A DNA stretch of 38,721 nt from Bacteroidota bacterium (GTDB taxonomy: Bacteria; Bacteroidota; Bacteroidia; UKL13-3). The position numbers and the translations under genes are program-made. The notes beneath the pieces are model-generated. The model was not told where the DNA came from, did not search any database, and was given only the letters and a program-made list of their open reading frames with translations. Positions 23,433 to 25,499 of this stretch are shown in pieces (the stretch's first letter is position 1; every line of letters starts with the position of its first letter). Location of the stretch: contig CANGGG010000026.1 of assembly GCA_947453415.1 (NCBI GenBank), positions 1-38,721 of the forward strand, in the 5' to 3' direction.

Positions 23433-24245
23433 TTAGTTGTGAGATGTGGTGTCGTTACTCACATTATTCTGACCATCTATTAATCCATTTTTTACCAAAA
23501 CTTCCTTAGCCAAATTCATATAATTAATGGCTCCCCTACTTTCCGCATCATGAAGCAAAACAGGAATTCCAAAACTTGGCGCTTCGCTTAATTTAGTATT
23601 ACGTTGAATAATAGTTTCAAATACTAATTGCTGAAAATGCATTTTAACTTCTTCAACTACTTGGTTGCTTAAACGCAAACGCATGTCGTACATTGTTAAT
23701 AAAATACCTTCTATTTGCAAATTTGTATTCAAACTTTGTTGAACAATTTTAATGGTATTTAATAATTTCCCTAATCCTTCTAAAGCAAAATACTCACATT
23801 GAACCGGAACTATTACACTATCGCTTGCCACTAAAGCATTGGTAGTAATTAAACCTAAACTTGGCGAACAATCAATGATGATAAAATCATAATCTTTTCT
23901 AATTGAATCTAAAGCAAATTTCAACAGTTTTTCTCTGTTTGGTAAATTCACCAATTCTATTTCAGCACCTACCAAGTCAATATTCGAAGGAAGTAAATCC
24001 ATGTATTGAAGTTCAGTATGAACAATGGCTTCTGTGCAAGGAGTTTCATTTACCATTACTTCATAAAGTCCAGTAACAACATCTCTTGGATCAAAACCAG
24101 TTCCCGAGGCTGAATTAGCTTGGGGATCGGCATCTACCAGTAATGTTTTAAACTCCAATGCAGCTAAACTTGCCGATAAATTAATGGCAGTAGTAGTTTT
24201 ACCAACTCCACCTTTTTGATTTGCTATTGCTATTATTTTTGCCAT
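23433..24245 (-). CDS. parA: Chromosome-partitioning ATPase ParA (Soj)
   Basis: 270 residues. The deviant Walker A motif [18 protein letters not shown] begins at residue 11, the Walker A' segment [16 protein letters not shown] at about 35-50, and Walker [15 protein letters not shown] in the middle, as in chromosomal ParA/Soj. It moves ParB-parS complexes on the nucleoid. The extra short C-terminal tail ([22 protein letters not shown]) is polar and variable. It is the first gene of the parAB operon; its promoter must lie in the 504-bp gap upstream. Confidence 0.96.
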
Positions 24246-24388
24246 TTTAAATTTTAATCAGTATTTATGGTTTTGAAAATAAAGTCGTTGTGAGTATTGA
24301 AATTAGTTTTTATTGTGTTTTAAAAAAAATATTTTGACTTTTATTCTTTACCAAATAAACTCTTTCATTAAAGCAACTAATCCACCTA

Positions 24389-24410
24389 TTATCAACATGC
24401 CTGTTGATAA
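24389..24410. promoter_or_regulatory. Perfect inverted repeat TTATCAACA-N4-TGTTGATAA
   Basis: Two exact 9-bp arms separated by TGCC. Each arm differs by one base from the DnaA box TTATCCACA, so a DnaA-like or a dedicated repressor site are both possible. It lies 8 bases upstream of a perfect TAnnTTTG box, where it would overlap the -33 region of that promoter. Confidence 0.45.
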
Positions 24411-24418
24411 GGTTAGTT

Positions 24419-24427
24419 TATATTTGC
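24419..24427 (+). promoter_or_regulatory. Bacteroidota -7 box (TATATTTGC) of an unassigned transcript
   Basis: TATATTTG matches the TAnnTTTG -7 consensus exactly, on the plus strand, with no gene downstream before the terminators at 24482-24559. The -33 box is not clear; the inverted repeat occupies that place. Confidence 0.35.
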
Positions 24428-24525
24428 AGAGTGCTAATTTCTAAGAAAATAGTTGTGGAACAATTAAAAAATTGGTTTTGTAAAACCTGAATTAGAAATG
24501 GTTTAGGTTTTTTTATGTAAAACAG

Positions 24526-24559
24526 AAAAACCCTTGATTAGCTATAATCAAGGGTTTTT
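24526..24559. terminator. Strong bidirectional intrinsic terminator
   Basis: A perfect 15-bp stem, AAAAACCCTTGATTA / TAATCAAGGGTTTTT, with a 4-base loop. It stands mid-way between parA and the glycosyltransferase gene. It lies 191 bases past the glycosyltransferase stop, so it may end that transcript on the minus strand and the short unit from 24427 on the plus strand. Confidence 0.85.
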
Positions 24560-24749
24560 ACTTATATGAATTAGAAAAAAGTATTATTGAACAACCATCA
24601 GCAATCACTGTGCCAAAGGTGTAAAAATTATAATATTTTTCTTAAAGCTTTGTAATTATGTATTTTAAAAAAAACAAGAGAAATGCTAATAAAGAGTTTA
24701 TACAAAAAGTGTATTCAATTAATAAAACCAAAACACATTTTTATACAAA

Positions 24750-25499
24750 TTAGTTCAGTTTTTTAAACATGGCTAAATTAATGAACCCCCATTTTTGAAA
24801 ACGGTACTGAATTGAAGTTCCCATAACACCTAAACCATATTTTACACTTCTACTAAAATTAATGGATGATGCTTCATCAAAATATTTGGTAGGACAAGTA
24901 ATTTCACCTATTTCAAAACCTGCATAAAACACTTGCGCACACATTTGATTATCGAAAACAAAATCATCGCTACACAAATTATAATCAACGGCATGTAAAA
25001 TTTTCATATCGTAAGCCCTGTATCCTGTATGGTATTCTGAAAGCTTTTGACTCATTAAAATATTTTGAAACAAGGTAAGACAACGATTGAAAAAATATTT
25101 GTACAGAGGCATTCCACCTTTTAAAGCTCCTTTTCCTAAAATACGCGATGCAAAAACTGCAGGATAAACATCAAAAGCAATCATAGATGCAATGCTATGA
25201 ATTAAGGTTGGTGTATATTGATAGTCAGGATGCAACATGATTACAATATCAGCACCAATCTGTTTTGCTTTATCGTAACAGGTTTTTTGATTACCACCAT
25301 AACCCCTGTTTTTTTCATGCCTAATTACATGCTGAATTCCAATTTTTTGAGCTAGAATACTTGTTTGATCTTTACTCGTATCATCCACCAAAATAACCTC
25401 ATCTACAATGTCAAATGGAATTTCATTATACGTTTTTTCTAAAGTAAGTTCTGCATTGTATGCGGGCATTACTACTACTATTTTTTTATTATTCAGCAT
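24750..25499 (-). CDS. Family 2 glycosyltransferase (polyprenyl-phosphate sugar transferase-like)
   Basis: 249 residues of the GT-A fold. Seen are VVVMPAYNAELTLEKTYNEI at the N terminus, the nucleotide-binding VILVDDTSKDQT (36-46), the RGYGGNQKT segment (65-73) and IVIMLHPDYQY (85-95), whose Asp is the metal-binding position. EYHTGYRAYDMKIL is typical of dolichyl-phosphate mannose synthase-like enzymes. There is no C-terminal membrane anchor. It would transfer a sugar from a nucleotide sugar to a lipid carrier or glycan; the donor cannot be told. It has its own promoter (25512-25542). Confidence 0.9.
   Translation of the reverse strand: MLNNKKIVVVMPAYNAELTLEKTYNEIPFDIVDEVILVDDTSKDQTSILAQKIGIQHVIRHEKNRGYGGNQKTCYDKAKQIGADIVIMLHPDYQYTPTLIHSIASMIAFDVYPAVFASRILGKGALKGGMPLYKYFFNRCLTLFQNILMSQKLSEYHTGYRAYDMKILHAVDYNLCSDDFVFDNQMCAQVFYAGFEIGEITCPTKYFDEASSINFSRSVKYGLGVMGTSIQYRFQKWGFINLAMFKKLN

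Follow-up and report, generated by a model that had tools for sequence, protein, structure and literature searches.

The window, by which we mean the whole stretch of 38,721 nucleotides analyzed here, is contig 26 of a 2.9-Mb Bacteroidota genome in 107 contigs. Between parA and a glycosyltransferase family 2 gene, it holds two putative transcription units (Table 1): unit A on the plus strand, headed by an operator-like palindrome, and unit B on the minus strand, a candidate small RNA gene. The two units are convergent and have a terminator in common, and their 3' ends would therefore be complementary. Ten genomes of the window's genus (g1) were available for comparison, eight of which hold the region (G000 to G006 and G009), while G007 and G008 gave no match. 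The named records that match the relatives of the window are mostly metagenome-assembled; they also include the complete genome of UKL13-3, a family member sequenced from a lake co-culture (PMC5248499).

Table 1. Features of the parA-upstream region and of the corresponding loci in related genomes.
Feature	Position	Strand	Remarks
parA	23433..24245	-	Pfam AAA_31/CbiA; downstream neighbor of unit B, same strand
Palindrome TTATCAACA-N4-TGTTGATAA	24389..24410	.	operator-like, upstream of parA; core in 8/8 g1
-7 box TATATTTG of the putative unit A promoter	24419..24426	+	8-base spacing to palindrome in 8/8 g1
Probable deletion scar	24428..24509	+	ECF-sigma operon leader fused to post-operon hairpin (24484-24509)
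Terminator hairpin, perfect, bidirectional	24526..24559	.	terminates unit B; could also serve the plus-strand unit
Candidate small RNA, unit B	24526..24589	-	~64 nt; predicted +1 at 24589; 3' end at the terminator T-run
Second pairing segment UUUCUAAUUC	24568..24577	-	complementary to GAAUUAGAAA at the lipoprotein mRNA 5' end
5' seed CAAUAAUACUUUUUUC	24574..24589	-	exactly complementary in 14/20 RNAs
Sigma54-type promoter TGGCACAGTGATTGC	24615..24601	-	-26 to -12; exact TGGCACN5TTGC; kept in 8/8 g1
Enhancer-like inverted-repeat site AAGTGTA ... ACACATTT	24707..24740	.	-118 to -151; g1 alignment
Glycosyltransferase family 2 gene	24750..25499	-	upstream of unit B; Pfam PF00535
ECF sigma/beta-barrel-like/PKD-T9SS operon	L053:4447-8612, L052:6251-10416, L054:3195-7352		between palindrome promoter and terminator

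An earlier note on this DNA had described the interval 24389-24559 as a transcription unit with an operator-like palindrome upstream of parA, and much of what it read in the letters is borne out. The palindrome TTATCAACA-TGCC-TGTTGATAA was read correctly when its letters were checked, the exact TAnnTTTG box lies 8 bases past it, and the strong terminator is a perfect 15-bp inverted repeat (24526-24540/24545-24559). An exact copy of the palindrome occurs only once in the 2.9-Mb genome. Its core, TCAACA-N4-TGTTGATAA, recurs together with the 8-base gap to a -7-like box in all eight g1 genomes with the region, the box being TAnnTTTG in six of them and TGGTTTTG in G003 and G006. However, this conservation within the genus does not extend to the rest of the plus-strand unit, which diverges among the g1 relatives beyond ~50 bases. 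A GTG at 24431 does open the 19-codon frame of the proposed peptide, but the frame is not conserved; it has 19, 24, 11, 11, 12, and 20 codons in G000, G001, G004, G003, G002, and G006, respectively, and no GTG start is found in G009 and G005. Likewise, the weak hairpin with a T run is present at about 24484-24509, but its place in a conserved small RNA was not confirmed: G005 and G009 lack it, and in G001 and G004 it is eroded or gone. The predicted fold of 24430-24563 beats 200 of 200 shuffles (z -4.97), whereas that of 24428-24500, which excludes the strong terminator, is unremarkable (z -1.37; 18 of 200 shuffles equally good).

In G002, G003, and G006, the same promoter precedes genes for an ECF sigma factor, a beta-barrel-like protein, and a protein that combines a PKD domain and a type IX sorting tail, the beta-barrel match of the middle protein being sub-threshold only. 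The hairpin AACCTGAATCAGAAATGGTTCAGGTT comes after this operon, and in the window the hairpin AACCTGAATTAGAAATGGTTTAGGTT, which resembles it, directly follows the leader; G005 and G009 have none. In G006, query positions 20-108 align with one end of the operon and 107-206 with the other, and the picture is similar in G002 and G003. Judged from these alignments, the lineage of the window most likely lost the ECF-sigma operon and kept its promoter and terminator; the reverse order, in which the hairpin was there first and the operon was inserted later, is the less simple reading. The parA tree contains a group of G000, G001, and G004 and a group of G002, G003, and G006, which together with G005 form a three-way fork, and the order of operon loss or gain is therefore not decided by the tree. 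The operon is missing at this place in the window's genome, in G001, and in G004. Copies of the terminator-like hairpin were also seen after successive gene blocks in G002 (L052:4522-4600, L052:6179-6236, and L052:2651-2749) and after gene blocks in G003 (L053:8627-8705 and L053:10484-10583), as if gene blocks had come and gone at a repeated hairpin in these two genomes.

The palindrome core was also found near parA in other genera. TCAACA-N4-TGTTGA lies no more than 600 bases upstream of parA at 11 of 30 loci scanned (six of them in g1), and outside g1 it precedes parA at 5 of 23 loci (G017, G018, G019, G028, and G029). The scan misoriented the G005 locus, whose palindrome, ~750 bases from parA, was identified separately; several hundred bases, probably a coding frame, separate the two in this genome (L058:3794-4500). 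Because the small RNA is located elsewhere in G017, G018, G028, and G029, the palindrome goes with the parA region. Since the promoter with its palindrome is conserved in the genus and palindromes of this core recur upstream of parA outside it, a role of the palindrome as an operator is plausible. Parallel searches for the canonical parS site TGTTNCACGTGNAACA gave no match in the window or in this genome, and the site is present in 2 of 17 genomes. Upstream of parA, paired TGTTNCAC-like half-sites of parS, spaced or outward-facing, were observed in several genera (L037, L039, L040, L044, L053, and L058), where they possibly represent a split or altered centromere site.

The note had also raised the question of a replication-linked site, the arms of the palindrome resembling DnaA boxes. 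On this reading, the palindrome would be an inverted pair of DnaA boxes tying parAB or the neighboring promoter to replication. Each arm is indeed one base off the DnaA box consensus TTATCCACA, and upstream of parA G033 has TATCAACA-N4-TGTGGATTA and G013 has TTATCCACA. However, we consider this role unlikely, given that the 38.7-kb window contains neither a further DnaA-type box nor a cluster of TTATCCACA-type boxes, that the UKL13-3 stretch holding parA has none either, and that both arms read TCAACA/TGTTGA at the 11 palindrome loci, letters which the search pattern required. TTATCNACA occurs twice in the 38.7 kb, both times as an arm of the palindrome, with a chance expectation of 2.6. No support for an origin of replication was found at the locus, and GC skew at 20 sampled UKL13-3 stretches was too noisy to show a switch. 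Somewhat less probable still is that the palindrome promoter produces a plus-strand small regulated RNA or peptide that is functional as such. The palindrome, the -7-like box, and the stretch up to GTGGAACAA are kept in 8/8 g1 genomes, and the leader of G005 and G003 can form the hairpin TGTGGAACAA/TTGTTTCACG, but the second arm of this hairpin is lost in G000, G001, and G004. Moreover, the variable body of the unit, the unconserved peptide, and the presence of the ECF-sigma operon behind the same promoter in three relatives all speak against it. Unit A is better read as a separate, partly conserved promoter/operator near parA that has most likely lost its operon in this lineage. The proposal of a small regulated RNA nevertheless holds in part: the region probably encodes one, though on the other strand and with part of it beyond the interval (from 24589 down to 24526).

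The most conserved sequence of the region was observed just beyond the flagged interval, at 24560-24617 in minus-strand reading. From the predicted +1, the minus strand carries the conserved block CAATAATACTTTTTTCTAATTCATAT, followed by the terminator. Unit B with its promoter has a mean column identity of 91% in the eight g1 genomes with the region, and promoter, spacing, seed, and terminator are conserved in all of them; the terminator stem of G005 differs partly through paired changes. On the minus strand, 24526-24589 contains no ATG or GTG and a single TTG, which lies inside the terminator.

To determine the distribution of unit B, 64 genomes of the family were searched with a sequence-only model at a cut-off of E<1e-5. 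Homologues were found in 20 genomes belonging to six genera (8/10 in g1, 6/9 in g2, 1/1 in g6, 2/2 in g9, 2/2 in g10, and 1/2 in g11). A structure-fitted alignment of the homologues included wrong-strand matches and was set aside. Likely further homologues are present in G011, G074, and G075, and the RNA gene of G011 adjoins a flavin reductase gene 76% identical to that beside the g10 copies. The pattern TGGCACN{22,24}AATACTTTTTTC retrieved 76 stretches from the genome contigs, of which 13 have the layout of the RNA gene by eye and the rest appear chance-like. The same pattern gave six matches in 395 genomes of the class, four within the family and two, chance-like, outside it.

Every homologue continues into a terminator-like inverted repeat, which is imperfect in G029. 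The terminator stem varies between genera, while the 5' block is constant, and the distance from TGGC to (T/C)ACTTTTTT is 29-32 bases in 20/20 homologues. The genomic neighborhood of the RNA gene differs between lineages: it lies upstream of parA in G014 as well as the eight g1 genomes, next to an OmpA-like gene and, as a rule, a MazG gene in G086, G084, G023, G029, G017, and G028, beside an OmpA-like gene with another gene intervening in G010 and G085, beside a flavin reductase gene and a GNAT gene in G018 and G080, and in a different context in G032. The occurrence in several gene contexts shows that the RNA gene is not a by-product of one neighbor. Taken as a whole, unit B has the appearance of a Bacteroidota small-RNA gene that had not been described before.

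The putative promoter of unit B is of the sigma54 type. TGGCACAGTGATTGC is the sole hit to TGGCACN5TTGC in the window at no more than one mismatch, where 2.2 hits are expected by chance, and the weight of the site therefore rests on its conservation. Eleven variable bases separate the promoter from the invariant block, which begins at 24589, 12 bases past the -12 C; the +1 as placed by the -12 element is thus the exact beginning of the conserved block. Further upstream, 19 of the 22 genomes carry hexamers of the GTGTAC/TGTACA type between -160 and -111, compared with 1 to 3 genomes for three other bins of 50 nt, in a comparison where hexamers and bins were picked after viewing the sequences and the 22 genomes are related. 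RpoN is encoded in 63 of the 64 family genomes, and the exception, G080, is 70% complete. A -24 GG and a -12 GC, 12 bases apart, are present in the window, the other seven g1 genomes, G014, and G011, whereas g2, g11, g10, G028, and G075 lack the -12 GC and G017 has it displaced by one. On this distribution, sigma54 control can be called firm only in g1, G014, and G011. Promoter sequence thus indicates sigma54 control of unit B, with good support in g1 and less certainty in the remaining lineages.

A putative target of the RNA was identified by complementarity. The block CAATAATACTTTTTTC, counted from the predicted +1, is complementary to the start codon of the mRNA of one small lipoprotein, and within the seed UAAUACUUUUUUC is complementary to GAAAAAAGUAUUA at this start codon. 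A search of 16 genomes for GAAAAAAGTATTA, which is complementary to the g1 seed, placed it at the ATG of one lipoprotein orthologue in 16/16, and 13 of these genomes encode an RNA exactly complementary to the 13-mer. The inexact seeds comprise a 12-nt run in G017 and G023, shorter or bulged matches in G084 and G032, and one internal mismatch each in G010 and G085. Where complete, the lipoprotein has 70-78 residues (MKKVLSI...ACGPS...; 71 aa here, MKKVLSIVAASAMLAIVACGPS...). It belongs to no Pfam family above the cut-off, and its best NCBIfam model, PG1828 family lipoprotein, is sub-threshold (24.5 bits vs. a cut-off of 50). The lipoprotein gene of G000 has, by eye, its own TATATTTG box and a terminator-like hairpin. 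In G080, which carries the RNA, the lipoprotein was not found.

Duplex energies were computed without accessibility. The duplex with the target reaches -27.1 in G029, compared with -23.0 for the next among 204 sampled starts. In g1, the target is first by a narrow margin: at -14.2, it leads the next of 33 window starts (-13.2) and the next of 92 starts from g1 loci (-14.1). Shuffled RNAs match the energy of the target in 0-1 of 1000 cases in each of seven genomes. The start sequence of the lipoprotein is, however, identical in G065 and G081, where no RNA homologue was detected, and since it is conserved without the RNA, the seed match alone is modest evidence. Across the 16 genomes, GAAAAAAGTATTA was found at 60 places. 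The 41 places examined fall at the lipoprotein (16), in the RNA gene itself (4), in other ATG-led frames (5), and off any ATG (16). The five other ATG-led frames are four exported-looking proteins, two of which are orthologous, and one 20-codon frame. These ATG-led seed matches in exported-looking proteins (L257, L280, L285, and L324) are possible secondary targets. A likely g14 homologue of the RNA gene (L245:1501-1600 and L249) has an altered seed (complement CUAUGAAAACAAAAACUAUU), and a different start sequence is therefore predicted for the g14 lipoprotein.

Downstream of the seed, the RNA matches the lipoprotein mRNA at its 5' end, lineage by lineage; with the seed included, roughly the first 30 letters of the RNA can pair with the start of this mRNA. 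In g1 and G014, UUUCUAAUUC pairs with GAAUUAGAAA, with one insertion in the G005 RNA. The corresponding pairs are CAAACUC with GAGUUUC in g10 (one edge mismatch), UUGAUAAAAUC with GAUUUUAAUCAA in g2 (one bulge), AUUGGAUAAAAUUC with GAAUUUUAACCAAU in UKL13-3 (one mismatch), and UUGAUAAAACG with CGUUUUAUCAA in g9. In g3, where the seed has changed, it forms 16 uninterrupted base pairs with CCAAGUAAAAUGAAAA; for this pair, the RNA was taken from G011 and the leader from its congener G065. We then compared the true assignment of RNAs to leaders with all rearrangements, using one representative per lineage (seven or six), with lineages and segments chosen after the match had been seen; separate per-genome pairings were computed for 19 genomes. 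When the start codon was excluded, the true arrangement of six lineages was the best of 720 (sum -69.8 vs. a mean of -34.7), and the own leader was the best partner for 6/6 RNAs. Reversed-RNA controls were much weaker (diagonal sum about -28). For seven rows, 2 of 5040 arrangements were equally good, the tie being a swap of two rows with equal energies. When the start codon was included, the true arrangement was still the best of 720, but the own leader was best in only four of six cases because the shared seed dominates. That two unlinked genes both change and yet stay matched is hard to explain without pairing in the cell.

The same covariation bears on what else the conserved minus-strand block could be. 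If it were a DNA element of the promoter region and not an RNA, the nearly fixed distance from TGGC to (T/C)ACTTTTTT would be accounted for, but the part after the block would hardly covary with an unlinked mRNA leader, and a terminator-like repeat would not be expected to follow despite a sequence that differs between genera; we regard this as very improbable. Equally improbable is that the RNA gene arose as an inverted duplicate of the lipoprotein leader and is inert, its likeness being upheld by gene conversion or mere chance. Although the RNA of g9 and g11 is close to the leader antisense minus its middle, promoter, enhancer-like sites, and terminator are all kept, and by eye the similarity ends at the pairing segments. 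A functional RNA might also act in the opposite direction, by activating or stabilizing the lipoprotein mRNA, or the lipoprotein leader might serve as a sponge for the RNA. Pairing at an mRNA 5' end can protect from decay in other systems, and the second segment does pair with the 5' end here. However, in the lineages examined, the seed lies over or next to the start codon, which is the classical geometry of repression, and we deem activation or a sponge rather unlikely.

We consider it likely that unit B encodes a trans-acting sRNA of ~64 nt that is controlled by sigma54 and represses a small envelope lipoprotein, and that its role is probably the relief of envelope stress. An enhancer-binding activator on the sites at about -150 and -120 would drive sigma54 RNA polymerase at TGGCAC-N5-TTGC, and transcription from 24589 would yield an RNA whose 5' region is unpaired. 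The start codon of the lipoprotein would be bound by the first ~14 nt of this RNA and the mRNA 5' end by the following 10-15 nt, while the intervening leader would loop out. Pairing over the start codon is predicted to block translation and thereby to repress the lipoprotein. A smaller load of the small lipoprotein while sigma54 is active could relieve envelope stress and ease the export path. In F. psychrophilum, sigma54-type promoters are described for GroESL, DnaK, GrpE-DnaJ, HtpG, Lon, ClpB, Skp, gliding genes, and the RNA Rfp36 (PMC9723704). Should this regulon also apply to the bacterium studied here, the RNA would, by analogy with MicL, unburden the export path of the lipoprotein when the cell is stressed.

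Envelope sRNAs with a single known target already exist. MicL of E. coli resembles unit B in that it is driven by an alternative sigma factor and its only known target is the mRNA for the envelope lipoprotein Lpp, whose translation it blocks (as described in PMC6737893 and PMC9438474); for unit B, a lipoprotein other than Lpp is the target by complementarity only, and the translation block is predicted. MicL has a sigmaE promoter and is processed from the cutC transcript, whereas unit B has a sigma54-type promoter and its own intergenic gene, and, unlike MicL, it would pair at two sites, the mRNA 5' end and the start codon. Under stress, MicL relieves the lipoprotein export load via Lpp, according to the account in PMC6737893. 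The same source describes RybB and MicA as envelope-stress sRNAs that lower the synthesis of outer-membrane proteins, as proposed for the lipoprotein of unit B, but with porin targets, sigmaE, and Hfq (PMC6737893).

A search of Rfam 15 gave nothing above threshold in 23800-25400 (sub-threshold hits only, at E up to 10) and no match at gathering score in six homologue loci. Rfam holds a MicL model, and with no Rfam match there is no sign of homology to MicL. GlmY and other proteobacterial sigma54-dependent sRNAs belong to another phylum and have other targets. Like unit B, GlmY has a sigma54 promoter with upstream activating sequences (described for glmY/QseF in PMC6075780). Within the same phylum, Rfp36 of F. 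psychrophilum is a putative regulatory RNA that has, like unit B, a sigma54-type (SM4) promoter (PMC9723704, Table 2A); it is named once in the main text of that paper, with no function given there, and was compared with unit B by its description. Rfp18 of the same species is, like unit B, a conserved Bacteroidota sRNA, and its targets have been studied; unlike unit B, it is described as strongly folded and as affecting metalloprotease mRNAs, with pairing predicted via a stem-loop (PMC9723704). No description of an RNA such as unit B was found in searches of the open-access literature. As far as searched, the RNA family, its promoter class, and its two-site pairing appear to be new.

For the family as a whole, we lean, by a modest degree, towards a sigma54/enhancer-controlled sRNA with one conserved target, which would form a lipoprotein arm of the envelope-stress response that evolved independently of the enterobacterial sigmaE-MicL-Lpp system. 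This RNA would clamp the 5' end and the start codon of the mRNA, and the clamp would have been rewritten together with the leader in at least six lineages. To our knowledge, few Bacteroidota sRNAs have known targets; for unit B, the predicted target is backed by covariation in six lineages, the promoter class is predicted, and the link to stress is open to test. The matched sRNA-mRNA series offers natural material for the study of pairing rules in bacteria without Shine-Dalgarno sequences. If our reading is true, the repression of an envelope lipoprotein by an sRNA under a stress sigma factor would have evolved more than once.
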